Origin: a virus | Strand: one strand, 5' to 3' | DNA: 30,698 bases | IMG/VR virus record: IMGVR_UViG_3300018017_000011 | Span: 1 to 30,698 of that record | Part shown: positions 2,015 to 16,452 of the stretch, piece after piece | Layout of the letters: every line of letters starts with the position of its first letter | Numbering within the stretch: the first letter of the stretch is position 1 | Made by a program: the position numbers and the translations under genes | The notes under the pieces: generated by a model | Database searches by the model: none | The model's input: the letters and a program-made list of their open reading frames with translations, nothing else | What the model was told of the DNA's origin: nothing

Positions 2015-3490
2015 ATGAGCAAGTTGATGGAGCAACGCAAAGCAGCAAAGACAAAAAAGTCAACGATCATCCTGTCCCTTGAAACGGTACGGGATGCAAT
2101 CACCATCGGTAAGTCGCTGTTGCAGAAATACGAAGCCGAGGGCACTAACGATCCACAAGTGGAGCAAGCCGTCCAGCACTTGGAAGGGCTGCTTACTAGC
2201 CAGCCAGACCAGATGCAATCAGAGGGTGCAGTGAACGTCGAAGATTATTTCGACGATGCTATTTTGCCTGAGGTAGCACGTCAGGCTAAAAATGAGGTAG
2301 ACATGATCGCACAAAAGCGTCGGGAAGCACGTCCCGTACAAGCAGCAACGCAATCGACACAGCCCGTAGCCCAGCCCCAGAAGACCTCTGCCGTTGGCAA
2401 CGATCAGTTTGTGTCTGATCGCGACGAAAAAGGCAACCCTAAGGCCCCTGAAAAGGCTGAAGTTCCCCGTCTCGCCGCGAAGAAGAAAGAAGCGGTTCCC
2501 GTACCCGTTCCCGCCGCTCCCCCAGCCGCCGCCCCCAAACCTGCTGTTGGTGGTGGAGCATTCGACTCCCTCCTCGACAAACTGCCGTCCGATGTCCTCG
2601 CCAAGTGGGTCAAAGACTTGACTGGCAATGAAGCTTTCGAGCAGGACAAGGACGTACAGGCTGCCGTTGAGAGCTTGGCTGGAAAGCTTCAGGCTCGTCC
2701 AGTTGAGGCGGCTCCTGCCGCCCCCGGTGCCGCACCGATGGCTCAGGCCGCTTCTGCAAAGAAGGCGGAAGCATTCGGTGGTAAGCAAGCTCCTCCATTC
2801 GGCAAGAAAGACGAAAAGAAAGACGAGAAGAAGGATGACAAGAAGGCGTCCATCTCTGGTTTGAATTTCGTCGCAGCCGAGCAGGAAAAGGTTGCCGTCG
2901 CACCTCCGGGCAGCGAGAACGTTGTTCACGCCCTCAAAAAGGAAGACGTTGACAACCCATTCGCCGTGGCATGGTCGATGTACAACAAGGGCGACAAGAT
3001 GTCCGCTGTCAAGGCCGCAGCCGAGGTACTGTCAAAGATGGCAAGCGGTGCGGCTGGTGGGGCATGGTCAACCGATCAAGACAAGGGCAACATTACCGAA
3101 GATGGTGGACGTACACCAGAAGTCGGCGAAGCCCACAGCAAGATTGATGAAGCTCCCGCCCGTCTGGACCGTCCTGCAACGACGCTCCCGATCAAATTAG
3201 CTGGCGAGATGACGGCTCAAAAAGCTGTAAAGGAGGCGGAAAGGCTAGGCAAAGAGCTTAAACAAACCTACCTTGACGCCAAAGCGATCTGCACGGTGAA
3301 CGATAGCCGTCCAGTTCGTGAGTTCGTAGAAAGTATCTTCCGTGCAGGTTCCATGGCTGATGAGGCGGTCAAGACCCTCAACAAGCTGGTCATGCAGGAA
3401 GAGTCCGAGGAAGCGGCTGCAAAAATCCGTGAGAAGAGCAACAAGAAGTCTTCTTTCAAGGGTTTGGCGCTGGTAACTTCGGCAGAATAA
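2015..3490 (+). CDS. Unidentified Ala/Pro/Lys-rich virion-type protein, 491 aa
   Basis: Not recognised by family. ATG follows AGAGGA with good spacing. Residues 1-65 are helical (TVRDAITIGKSLLQKYEAEG, then PQVEQAVQHLEGLL). A second copy of a similar helix pair may lie near residues 185-225 (FDSLLDKLPSDVLAKWVKDL, then VQAAVESLAGKLQ). Between them are flexible linkers: a proline/alanine run (VPVPVPAAPPAAAPKP) and a lysine/aspartate run (KKDEKKDEKKDDKK, about residues 266-280). The C-terminus is again helical and charged. The linkers hold K-x-A type motifs (KKKEAVP, SAKKAEA, QEKVAVA) also seen in the other large proteins here. It lies in the tail operon, directly ahead of a GIY-YIG insert. A structural or internal virion protein is most likely; an assembly chaperone is an alternative. 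Confidence 0.6.
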   Translation: MSKLMEQRKAAKTKKSTIILSLETVRDAITIGKSLLQKYEAEGTNDPQVEQAVQHLEGLLTSQPDQMQSEGAVNVEDYFDDAILPEVARQAKNEVDMIAQKRREARPVQAATQSTQPVAQPQKTSAVGNDQFVSDRDEKGNPKAPEKAEVPRLAAKKKEAVPVPVPAAPPAAAPKPAVGGGAFDSLLDKLPSDVLAKWVKDLTGNEAFEQDKDVQAAVESLAGKLQARPVEAAPAAPGAAPMAQAASAKKAEAFGGKQAPPFGKKDEKKDEKKDDKKASISGLNFVAAEQEKVAVAPPGSENVVHALKKEDVDNPFAVAWSMYNKGDKMSAVKAAAEVLSKMASGAAGGAWSTDQDKGNITEDGGRTPEVGEAHSKIDEAPARLDRPATTLPIKLAGEMTAQKAVKEAERLGKELKQTYLDAKAICTVNDSRPVREFVESIFRAGSMADEAVKTLNKLVMQEESEEAAAKIREKSNKKSSFKGLALVTSAE

Positions 3491-3493
3491 GGT

Positions 3494-3597
3494 TCGGGGA
3501 ACGTAAAAACGCCGGGTCATCGTGCTTGGAATTTCACTGCCTTAGGGCCGTATCGTTACGTGCGATGAATTGGAACGAAGGTAGTCACGTTCCCCGA
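3494..3597 (+). other. Potential structured RNA: 11-bp stem closing an 82-base loop upstream of the GIY-YIG gene
   Basis: TCGGGGAACGT at 3494-3504 is the exact reverse complement of ACGTTCCCCGA at 3587-3597. Inside the loop are two smaller hairpins: GCC-TTAG-GGC near 3539-3548 and ATCG-TTACGTG-CGAT near 3552-3566. The segment lies between the stop of the 491-residue gene and the GIY-YIG start at 3639, which has no clear ribosome binding site. It could be a leader limiting endonuclease translation, an mRNA-end structure, or a remnant of a self-splicing element. No group I intron core was recognised. Confidence 0.45.
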
Positions 3598-3638
3598 GCA
3601 GTGATTTTAGTTTTCTGGATTTCGCAACTACTAATTGA

Positions 3639-4325
3639 ATGGGATTTTTTGATTGCGGTGTGTATCGTTGGTTGAACACGGTGAACGGCAAATCGTACAT
3701 CGGCAGTGCAGCAGACATGAAAGATCGGCGGAAGCGACACCTGTGGGAGTTTAGCGCAGGACGCCATGTCAACAGAAAACTGTCAAATGCCTTCAAGAAG
3801 TATGGTGAAAAAGCGTTTGAATTCGAGATTTTGGCTTACTGTCCTGAGGAAGATTTACTGTGGCAGGAACAAATAGCCATCGATGCTTTTGATGCATACC
3901 GAACTGGATATAACATGTGTCCAGTTGCAGGTAGGCCGATGGCGGGACGAAAACATTCGGACAAGACCAAACAGCTAATGTCGGGTCCCCGAGGAAAACA
4001 GTCTGCCGAGTGGGTGGAGAAAAGAACGGCACCTAAAAGAGGGAGGCCGTTAACGCCCGATCAGCTTAAAGCTCAGATGGTGGGATGGGAAACCAGAAAG
4101 AAAAATAACTGGCATCCTTCCGCTGACGCAAGAAAAATTCAGACCGAAGCTTTGATTCGCAGTAATAAAAGTGAATCAAAGAGAGAAACTTCGGCAGAGA
4201 GTATTCGGAAGTTGAACAAGTCTAGGACTCCCGAATTCGTAGCATGGTGTATAGCCAAGGCTACGGCAACACGGTTAGGCCGTGAGTTCAACCAATCTAG
4301 ACCCGCCGTAAGATATACGGCTTAG
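3639..4325 (+). CDS. GIY-YIG homing endonuclease (free-standing), insert 1
   Basis: A 228-residue protein with the GIY-YIG nuclease fold: GVY at residues 7-9, YIG at 20-22, then an arginine/lysine-rich helix (DRRKRH), a KYGEKAFEFEIL segment and the glutamate-bearing helix LLWQEQIAIDAF. Next comes a NUMOD3-like DNA-binding segment (GRKHSDKTKQLMSG, about residues 107-120) and a basic C-terminal tail. Such enzymes make a site-specific break in DNA lacking the gene, so that repair copies the gene in. The gene is visibly more AT-rich than its neighbours, in keeping with separate origin. It separates the 491-residue gene from the tail-tube-like gene; the latter keeps its own ribosome binding site (GGAGA) 11 bases after this gene ends. 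No good ribosome binding site precedes the ATG, and a stem-loop lies upstream. Confidence 0.88.
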   Translation: MGFFDCGVYRWLNTVNGKSYIGSAADMKDRRKRHLWEFSAGRHVNRKLSNAFKKYGEKAFEFEILAYCPEEDLLWQEQIAIDAFDAYRTGYNMCPVAGRPMAGRKHSDKTKQLMSGPRGKQSAEWVEKRTAPKRGRPLTPDQLKAQMVGWETRKKNNWHPSADARKIQTEALIRSNKSESKRETSAESIRKLNKSRTPEFVAWCIAKATATRLGREFNQSRPAVRYTA

Positions 4326-13492: not shown

Positions 13493-14152
13493 ATGGGCAC
13501 TATTTATCTGATTCGCAACCTAATCAACGGGAAGTGCTACGTTGGTCAAACCACGCTAACGCTTCGCGAGCGGTGGAATTGCCATTTAAGCGCGTCCAGA
13601 AATACGCCTAAACCCTCCTATTTTCAAAGAGCAATCCAGAAGTATGGTGCCGATAACTTTTCCATAGAGGTTCTGGTTGAAACAGAAGATCGGGAGGTTG
13701 TCGATCAACTGGAGATTTTTTATATACAACAATTTGATTCTACCAATCACGAGAAGGGGTATAACTTGCAAATTGGGGGAAGAGACGGGGGAGGAGGTAG
13801 GCCCATCGGCATCCTAGTCTCAGATGAAACTCGAAAAAAGTTGCGTCAGTCGCATCTAGGAAAGAAGCACAGCGCCGAGCATAATCAGCATGTCAGTGAA
13901 TCCCTGATGGGAGACAAAAACCCGCGATTTGGGTCAAACTGGATGCATAGGGGCAACGAAGAAAAATTAGTTTCAAAAGATGCTCAAACGACCTTCATTC
14001 AGAGTGGTTGGAAATTAGGAAGACCTTCCGCCATAGATCAAGCTAATGAGATGAGGAAGAAGCTCGTTTGGACTCCTGAATTACAGGCCGAAACCGCTCA
14101 GAGGGCGAGAAAGCAAAATCGGGGGGAGAGCGGGAGGTTTCAATGTTCGTAA
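13493..14152 (+). CDS. GIY-YIG homing endonuclease (free-standing), insert 2
   Basis: A 219-residue protein with the GIY-YIG domain at its N-terminus: GTIYLIRN (2-9), CYVGQT (15-20), LRERW with candidate catalytic arginine, FQRAIQKYGADNFSIEVL, and the glutamate helix VVDQLEIFYIQQF. A NUMOD3-like segment (SDETRKKLRQSHLGKKHS, about 109-126) and the DNA-binding ending GNEEKLVSKDAQTTFIQSGWKLGR (about 154-178) follow; both are usual in phage homing enzymes. The gene is AT-richer than its neighbours. Its last 10 bases overlap the start of the SWIM gene and also carry that gene's ribosome binding site (GGGAGG, 14132-14137), so the insertion has become part of the downstream gene's expression. No ribosome binding site is clear before its own ATG. 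Confidence 0.9.
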   Translation: MGTIYLIRNLINGKCYVGQTTLTLRERWNCHLSASRNTPKPSYFQRAIQKYGADNFSIEVLVETEDREVVDQLEIFYIQQFDSTNHEKGYNLQIGGRDGGGGRPIGILVSDETRKKLRQSHLGKKHSAEHNQHVSESLMGDKNPRFGSNWMHRGNEEKLVSKDAQTTFIQSGWKLGRPSAIDQANEMRKKLVWTPELQAETAQRARKQNRGESGRFQCS

Positions 14153-16452
14153 CAATCCCCCTTTCCAAGTTGTATCAAAAGTTTGGGGTAAAGACAGCTA
14201 TTTCCCTCCCAGACATCGTAAGACAAACCAACGCATTTTCGAAAAAGTACCGCCCGGGCTGCTCGCCCACGTTGCTCGATTCGAATCCGAAAGCCCTATT
14301 TCTGCACTATAACGTGAAGTGCAACAAAGAAGATTCCGACCCTGCGGGGCACGATGTGCGCGTGCAATTCGACGTGACGAAGGTACAGGAGTCGAGCCAA
14401 GCGAAGGACCTCGATGTGCAGATTAGCTGCTCTTGTGTCGCTCCCGGCACGATGGTAAAAATGGCCGATGGTACAGAAAAACCTATAGAACAGATACAAG
14501 TTGGGGATTGGGTTATTACGCACAAAGGCAGGGCACGAAGAGTCACGGCGGTAACAAGTCGTTCAGCAAAGGAGAATGAACAGGCTTGGGAGACTAAAGC
14601 CGAAGGTTACCGAGACTCGTTGATTCTTTCCGACGACCATCCGTTGGGTGTCGTGCGAGGGCACGAACTATGTGCATGTGGGTGTGGTGAGCCCCTGTAC
14701 CCCATGCACTATCGCAATGTGACTATCAGACAGCGATGGGCTCGTAGGTTTGTTAAAGGACATTATCGTCGTGGAGAAGCTAATCCAGATAATTTTTCTG
14801 GTGGATGTTTTGGGTGGAAACCCCCGTTTGAATTGGTAGAAAGGGAGCAGCTATATTTTCCTAAAATTACATGGGCTGGGACCGAAGAAGTCGATCCCAA
14901 TTTCGCAAGTTTGGTCGGATATTATCTCGCCGAAGGTCATGTTCCCGTCTATTTGAAAAAACTCGGGAGATGGGGCAATGAAATTGTATGCGTGAAGTCC
15001 GCCGTGGTTTCCCTTGAAGGCGGCGAACATCGAGTGTATGGTGTCACATTCACGCTAAACCAGAACGAGCGTTACACGCTCGCCGCCGATATTGAAACCA
15101 AGGCTAAACTGTTTTGCGGGGAAGGCGTTGAAATTTCGGTTCAAGACCATCAGCACAAAACCCACAAGTGGCTCACCGTCACTGTTAAAGACAAAAATCT
15201 AGCCGCTGCTATGGTTCGTGCGGTTGGTCGGGGGAGCTTGGACAAAAAATTGTCCGATTGGGTGCTGGGGTGGTCGTTAGAGGCAATGACGGCTTTGGTC
15301 AGTTCCTATGCCTTAGGAGATGGCTATGTGGGAAATGGTAAGCAATGCGTGTTTTCTGTTTCTCGGGACTTGATCTCGCAGGTTTCAATGTTCCTTTTTT
15401 CTATTGGCGTTTGGCACGGCTGGACTTATCACCGCAAGAATGGTACCAAAAATACTAGCTATCGTCTGAATTGGAATTATCGCGAATATCCGCAGCTTTT
15501 AGATGTCATGATGGATAGGATGCGTGAGGAAGATAGAACAAGAGCGGAAGCACGATTGAATAAAGAAAGCTGCTGGGGAGATTGTCGCGACCGCGAATGG
15601 GGAACAGGGTTTATTCGATCTTTGCGATCCAAGAAAAGAATTAAAGCTCCGAGTGTTTTTCATGACCTTACCGTTGATGAGGATGAATCGTTTATCGCCA
15701 ATGGAATCGTTGTTCATAATTGTCCCGCGTTCTTATATTGGGGTGCCCAGTGGAACCTCCACCAGCGTGACGGCCTGCTAGGGACGCCCAGACCGCTCCT
15801 ACAGGCACCCACAGAGCGGCTTGACCTGCGGGGGAACTTCGTTATCTGCAAGCACATCCATGCGGTGTTCGAGCGCATCCTGCCAAGTGTCCAGCACAAC
15901 GTCGTGAAGATATTGCGCGAGCGTGAGATACAGCGCAAAAAGGACGAAGTGGACATGACACCCGAACGCCTCCAAGAAAAACAGGAGGAGATGAAGAAAA
16001 AGAAGGAACTGGAGAAAATCAGGAAGGTCAAGGACAAGGAAGTCCAGAATAAGCTGATGGAGGCTTTGCAGAACCAAGAGGAAGCCCGCATGTTGCACCA
16101 GAAAGAACTGGAGGAGCAAGCGGAGCCCGTGGTGGAGCGTGACCGCCCAGCGACGGAGCCCGTCGAGGAAGCCCCGAAGCTAGGGCCAAAGCCAAAGGCA
16201 CCCGCACCTGCCCCGATGCCCGAGCCAAAGGGCGAGGAAGAAGCGATTCAGAATCTCTACCAGCAAGAACAAAAGAGTATTGAAGAAAAGCACCAAAAGG
16301 GAGAGCCGCACCTGCATAAGGGCTTGCCCTACGAAGAGGAGAAACCCGTGAAGGAAAAGAAATCACCTGAGTATATGGAAAAACTCCGTAAGGTCTGGCA
16401 GTACATCAAAGATAGGGCCAAGGAGCTTGCTCTTAGCGAAGAAGGGAAATAA
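14143..16452 (+). CDS. SWIM zinc-finger protein precursor interrupted by an intein
   Basis: The 769-residue precursor would splice to 340 residues. Extein N-terminal part: residues 1-97, helical then beta (PKALFLHYNVKC, then DVRVQFDVTKVQE). The junction reads ISCS / intein / CPAFLYWG. After splicing this gives CSCPAFLYWG followed about 40 residues later by ICKHIHAVF, the CxC...CxH pattern of a SWIM finger, which binds zinc and usually nucleic acid or protein. The C-terminal half is a long charged coiled coil (LQEKQEEMKKKKELEKIRK, then NQEEARMLHQKELEEQ), a Pro-rich linker (PKAPAPAPMPEP) and a helical end. Start ATG follows GGGAGG by 5 bases, both inside the 3' end of the GIY-YIG gene. SWIM proteins of this style occur in other large tailed phages; their role is not known to me with certainty. 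It lies close to the head genes. Confidence 0.8.
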   Translation: MFVTIPLSKLYQKFGVKTAISLPDIVRQTNAFSKKYRPGCSPTLLDSNPKALFLHYNVKCNKEDSDPAGHDVRVQFDVTKVQESSQAKDLDVQISCSCVAPGTMVKMADGTEKPIEQIQVGDWVITHKGRARRVTAVTSRSAKENEQAWETKAEGYRDSLILSDDHPLGVVRGHELCACGCGEPLYPMHYRNVTIRQRWARRFVKGHYRRGEANPDNFSGGCFGWKPPFELVEREQLYFPKITWAGTEEVDPNFASLVGYYLAEGHVPVYLKKLGRWGNEIVCVKSAVVSLEGGEHRVYGVTFTLNQNERYTLAADIETKAKLFCGEGVEISVQDHQHKTHKWLTVTVKDKNLAAAMVRAVGRGSLDKKLSDWVLGWSLEAMTALVSSYALGDGYVGNGKQCVFSVSRDLISQVSMFLFSIGVWHGWTYHRKNGTKNTSYRLNWNYREYPQLLDVMMDRMREEDRTRAEARLNKESCWGDCRDREWGTGFIRSLRSKKRIKAPSVFHDLTVDEDESFIANGIVVHNCPAFLYWGAQWNLHQRDGLLGTPRPLLQAPTERLDLRGNFVICKHIHAVFERILPSVQHNVVKILREREIQRKKDEVDMTPERLQEKQEEMKKKKELEKIRKVKDKEVQNKLMEALQNQEEARMLHQKELEEQAEPVVERDRPATEPVEEAPKLGPKPKAPAPAPMPEPKGEEEAIQNLYQQEQKSIEEKHQKGEPHLHKGLPYEEEKPVKEKKSPEYMEKLRKVWQYIKDRAKELALSEEGK
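14434..15720 (+). mobile_element. Intein with LAGLIDADG homing endonuclease, 429 aa
   Basis: Begins at Cys98 (CVAPGTMVKMADGTEKPI, block A) and ends VVHN before Cys527 (block G), with the penultimate His and terminal Asn needed for splicing. Block B is LSDDHPL (His166), with Ser in place of the more common Thr. Block F is FHDLTVDEDESFIANG. Between are two LAGLIDADG motifs, LVGYYLAEGH (257-266) and LVSSYALGDGYV (385-396), each with the acidic catalytic residue. An extra Cys/His-rich insert, CACGCGEPLYP...RFVKGH, sits directly after block B (about 176-205) and may bind zinc. All splicing residues are present, so it is predicted to be active. The whole unit is 1,287 bases, in frame and AT-richer than the extein. 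Confidence 0.93.

Follow-up and report, generated by a model that had tools for sequence, protein, structure and literature searches.

Inhibition of inteins by metal or redox state is already known, and there is also a precedent for a metal enzyme that harbors an intein with this type of cysteine partner. Zinc on the initiating cysteine blocks splicing of the mycobacterial DnaBi1 intein (PMC7360933) and of the Cryptococcus Prp8 intein (PMC6805012), and in the Pyrococcus abyssi MoaA intein splicing is blocked by a native disulfide that links Cys-3 to Cys1 (PMC10663303, PMC3922620).

Here we analyze a 30,698-nucleotide stretch of viral DNA (positions 1 to 30,698 of IMG/VR record IMGVR_UViG_3300018017_000011, hereafter the window) from a soil virus of the jumbo-phage type, in which a gene located near that for the major capsid protein encodes a predicted intein precursor. 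We interpret the element, with a probability of roughly 0.93, as a class 1 intein that carries an intact-looking LAGLIDADG endonuclease, occupies the codon of an invariant cysteine in a putative zinc site and would restore that host cysteine by splicing. This reading draws on direct observation of how the element is built, of the precise site as it stands empty in relatives, of motif conservation and of three alleles at the same site, one of them with a decayed endonuclease. The host family appears to be new for inteins as far as the open-access literature shows, and we found no pairing of inteins with a SWIM zinc finger in that literature; the novelty lies in the host family, the multi-allele series, a second insertion site and the CxC geometry, and not in a new mechanism.

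The MoaA intein lies in the radical-SAM Fe-S cysteine motif of its host. Like it, the window element is an intein of a putatively metal-related protein with an N-extein cysteine close upstream of Cys1; unlike MoaA, with its Cys-3 and Fe-S site, the window motif is a CxC (Cys-2 plus Cys1) of predicted zinc-binding type in a phage protein. With PI-SceI, the yeast VMA intein, it shares a Hint domain combined with a two-motif LAGLIDADG endonuclease, Cys1 and a +1 Cys, and PI-SceI provides its best Foldseek and profile matches, whereas the host gene is a different one, identity over the model alignments is ~12-17% and the window intein contains a CxCGC...GH insert. The AlphaFold model of the intein alone has a mean pLDDT of 46 (three sequences); searched with this low-confidence model, Foldseek returned the PI-SceI precursor 1ef0 first (E 8.5e-7) with I-DmoI among the top matches, and PI-SceI entries were also matched in a profile search against solved structures. 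The N-terminal splicing region, from one residue before the junction, matches the Rv2578c-family radical SAM intein protein model (NF038136, 3e-7), but the host protein is unrelated and this partial match falls far under the curated cut-off; no match to NF038136 above cut-off was found in control genomes. The inteins of Eggerthella phage LE2-3 gp71 and of locus L122 are of the same type (~22-26% identity) and are inserted at a Cys beside a C..C...C..H cluster, but at another site in another phage host protein.

Translation of the window yields a single ORF, open from end to end, that encodes a precursor of 769 aa. The features of this region are the following:

13493..14152, + strand: free-standing GIY-YIG/NUMOD3 homing endonuclease, directly upstream and overlapping the precursor start; a separate insertion.
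14143..16452, + strand: precursor gene (N-extein, predicted intein and C-extein, 769 aa); open frame, both exteins collinear with intein-free homologues.
14143..14433, + strand: N-extein, aa 1-97, terminating in ...LDVQISCS; aligned with about 60 distinct homologues.
14428..14436, + strand: C96-S97-C98, the CSC of the precursor, where C98 is intein Cys1; direct translation.
14434..15720, + strand: predicted intein, 429 aa (aa 98-526), Cys1 to His428-Asn429; Pfam/NCBIfam matches, precise insertion relative to intein-free relatives, Foldseek match to 1ef0.
14629..14640, + strand: intein block B, S66-D-D-H69, with Ser where TxxH usually has Thr; Ser66, Asp68 and His69 invariant in 4/4 alleles.
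14671..14763, + strand: C80-x-C82-G-C84 ... G-H110 inside the intein; C80, C82, C84 and H110 invariant in 4/4 alleles.
14902..14937, + strand: LAGLIDADG motif 1, FASLVGYYLAEG; E167 kept in the window, L007 and L121, Lys in L138.
15295..15324, + strand: LAGLIDADG motif 2, LVSSYALGDG, matched by Pfam LAGLIDADG_3; D296 replaced by Gly in L138.
15664..15720, + strand: intein blocks F and G, D411 ... VVHN; NCBIfam TIGR01443 intein_Cterm over cut-off.
15721..15723, + strand: Cys+1 (aa 527), second Cys of the invariant CxC once spliced, from homologue alignments.
15721..16449, + strand: C-extein, +1 Cys527 followed by PAFLYWG...CKH...; translation and homologue alignment.
15847..15855, + strand: C569-K-H571, distal half of the CxC...CxH motif; invariant among homologues.

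The insert begins with CVAPGTMV and ends with GIVVHN, immediately followed by Cys527 at +1. It is in frame, precisely absent from homologues, and combines Cys1, blocks A and B (SDDH for TxxH) and VVHN with a +1 Cys, as in class 1 inteins, with two LAGLIDADG motifs whose catalytic-acid segments, GYYLAEG and SYALGDG, both retain the acidic residue of a putative homing endonuclease. The initial annotation, which listed blocks A, B, F and G and both LAGLIDADG motifs, is borne out, with the qualification that block B has Ser for Thr; block F contains the Asp and lacks the usual His. Pfam matches in the precursor comprise Hom_end_hint (7e-8), Hint_2 (1e-6), Intein_splicing (7e-6) and LAGLIDADG_3 (2e-4), and intein_Cterm scores 32.5 bits against a cut-off of 15.6. 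We therefore classify 14434-15720 as a class 1 intein with a two-motif LAGLIDADG endonuclease, predicted to splice and to cleave. The Ser in block B and the missing block-F His count against this prediction and may bear on the rate of splicing, and the CxCGC...GH element suggests a second metal-binding insert with a putative role in DNA recognition. Some phage Hint proteins, such as that of L126, lack the C-terminal Asn and the +1 nucleophile, and a Hint domain of the bacterial-intein-like or hedgehog type would cleave without splicing; for the window element such a reading is highly improbable, since it has both HN and the +1 Cys, and the conserved half of the host domain sits in the C-extein.

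Excision of the intein would leave joined exteins of 340 aa, and this spliced protein was aligned with intein-free homologues. Fourteen loci at ~83% identity (L010-L022 and L036) cover essentially all of it and run uninterrupted over the junction (…QISCS|CPAFLYWGAQ…). Continuity also holds at the DNA level in the displayed intein-free loci, the closest relatives reading ...TGCTCC|TGCCC... over the insertion point; the observation as a whole is not due to chance. The placement of the intein between CS and C of the invariant CxC, proposed initially together with a smooth continuation over the ISCS/CPAF junction, thus stands in both protein and DNA, and so does the proposal that the +1 nucleophile is the second Cys of the CxC, since Cys527 matches the invariant Cys of the homologues. 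The same gene, free of the intein, lies a short distance downstream of the gene for the major head protein in IMG/VR contigs and in Tunturiibacter phage Tunturi_5, an isolate described as a 309-kb jumbo myovirus (PMC11924767). In a tree of the exteins, every gene with an intein is accompanied by a closely related one that lacks it (the window with L010 and L014, L007 with L005, L138 with L200 and L121 with L106), a patchy presence that is expected from the homing cycle.

The motif was surveyed in 114 loci comprising 63 distinct ORFs, 54 of which have a spacer of 40 residues between CxC and CKH. Both elements are present in all 59 distinct motifs (59/59), a count to be read with the fact that the search pattern itself demanded both; independently of that pattern, both Cys of the CxC and the CKH are invariant in a 50-sequence alignment, and the residue between the two Cys varies among the 59 motifs (S, T, G, D or K). 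The initial description of this site as a SWIM zinc finger holds for the ligands, as the family conforms to the SWIM (PF04434) pattern CxCx(n)CxH, but not for the model score. All six homologues remained below the curated PF04434 cut-off of 19.6 bits (11.5-18.2 bits, E 0.002-0.23), with alignments mostly confined to the CxC half, and the SWIM spacer is generally shorter than 40 residues. The model of the host domain (mean pLDDT 65.6) places a strand at 92-96 ahead of the CSC and a long helix from CKH onward; no credible fold match to it was found in the PDB, nor a solved relative of the host protein by sequence profile. A SWIM-like putative zinc site, with formal SWIM identity below the Pfam cut-off, is a plausible description of the host motif.

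It had been claimed that only splicing creates the CSC and that zinc binding depends wholly on the intein. Translation rules out a CSC that exists solely after splicing, because intein residue 1 is itself a Cys and the precursor already reads C96-S97-C98 (ISCS-CVAP), as do the other alleles at this site (VNCS-CVAL in L006/L007, LSCS-CVAP in L138). Nor does the claimed dependence follow, since CSC, Cys+1 and CKH all occur in the unspliced precursor. As judged from these residues, splicing would swap Cys1 for Cys+1, two potential zinc ligands, at one position of the motif; it would also return CKH to its usual distance of 40 residues, so a normal finger would still need splicing.

The unspliced precursor, with CSC, Cys+1 and CKH, could also bind metal in a manner that blocks splicing. 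Under this alternative C96, Cys1, Cys+1, C569 and H571 would bind zinc or become oxidized, a disulfide between Cys96 and Cys1 being optional, and would keep splicing in check until conditions shift; the site would act as a metal or redox switch, so that a capsid-neighbor phage protein would be made conditionally. The presence of Cys1 in the precursor CSC of all three alleles at the site and the zinc and disulfide precedents of DnaBi1, Prp8 and MoaA speak for such gating, but the same appearance is expected for any intein with a +1 Cys in a metal motif, most relatives are intein-free and evidently manage without a switch, and ~430 residues break the ligand spacing in the precursor, so that we consider it unlikely. 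Slightly less probable still is the proposal that finger and intein share ligands, that zinc or a disulfide in the precursor gates splicing and that the finger was hit twice for that property.

Scans with intein alignments located related inteins that bear on the reading of the window element as an intein with a homing endonuclease. Those of L006/L007 (46% identity to the window intein) and L138 (about 45%) occupy the same site (site a), and that of L121 (about 41-48%, depending on the alignment) lies in the same gene family at a second one (site b), directly after the distal His ligand (…FVICKH|CKAVFERILP…). The sequences represent three divergent alleles at site a (window, L006/L007, L138) and one at site b. 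The Cys after CKH is found in some relatives only, and the window gene has Ile at that position, so site b does not exist there; no clear DNA similarity was found between the surroundings of site a and those of site b. Pairwise identity among the window, L007, L138 and L121 inteins is 41-48% and drops to 21-27% when the next phage inteins are compared, and Cys1, SxxH, Asp411, the terminal His-Asn and the +1 Cys are invariant in 4/4 alleles. In the L138 intein (3001-4257) the motif 1 Glu is replaced by Lys (LAKG) and the motif 2 Asp by Gly (LGGG), yet Cys1, SxxH, HN and the +1 Cys are intact despite the loss of both catalytic acids. A homing cycle is expected to pass through sporadic presence and through endonuclease decay in which the splicing residues are retained.

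A purely selfish element, which targets the most conserved stretch of DNA and meets the Cys through its need for a +1 Cys/Ser/Thr and its preference for invariant motifs, is a probable account: no block of the host protein family is more conserved than CPAFLYWGAQWN, the L121 intein uses a non-invariant Cys next to CKH, and the distribution is patchy. It conflicts solely with a regulatory role and is compatible with our preferred reading; the retention of splicing residues in L138 after endonuclease decay tells against it, though the need for the host protein would also force that retention.

For the window element we infer the following course of splicing and homing at a putative zinc site. 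An intein very probably invaded the gene near the major capsid gene, at an invariant Cys codon of CxC...CKH. After translation, Cys1 would attack the Ser97-Cys98 bond, the N-extein would be transferred to Cys527 (+1), Asn429 would cyclize and the exteins would ligate as ...ISCS-CPAFLYWG.... Cys1 would thereby give way to the CxC Cys of the host protein itself, and the usual short distance to CKH would be re-established. The element would spread as its endonuclease cuts intein-free alleles. Its persistence at the site would follow from the invariance of the target, which conserves the DNA and makes imprecise loss harmful. This would be a clean case of Cys1 and then Cys+1 filling a single ligand position in a conserved metal motif, and the natural allele series, with three members at site a, a fourth at site b and a decayed endonuclease in one of them, together with many intein-free controls, makes it testable whether inteins in metal sites regulate or just exploit conserved cysteines.

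A cellular origin of the intein was also considered and rejected, as a genome scan of 84,980 species gave no comparably close relative; matches were mostly limited to the N-terminal splicing block, with one full-length match (L293, 22% identity). The L006/L007 comparison was uninformative for dN/dS, the two being near-identical with zero intein differences. The L121 intein (2022-3431) contains an additional insertion of ~50 residues that weakly matches a helix-turn-helix.

Other mobile elements and repeats were noted in these genomes. The GIY-YIG/NUMOD3 gene upstream of the precursor (13493-14152) sits between an HNH gene and the precursor gene; this insertion is absent from several close relatives (L014, L019, L021), and L010 carries a distantly related GIY-YIG (34%) at the corresponding position. 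The region near the capsid gene resembles a hot spot for homing endonucleases; elsewhere in the window, 3639-4325 encodes a second GIY-YIG-type homing endonuclease (phrog_314). In L026 (2735-5125) and L033 (3395-7279) the SWIM-like domain occurs among many small repeats (GxRV...VxW), each followed by a QxxLF-like motif, which may form an array of KOW/SH3-like domains. In a different phage protein, inteins lie at or beside the first Cys of a (S)MG-C...C..C...C..H cluster in Eggerthella phage LE2-3 gp71 (L038, 4626-7739), whose 'tRNA synthetase' label looks wrong, and in L122, L143 and L144. Similar proteins in L139, L140 and L142 carry inteins elsewhere, L139 apparently more than one.
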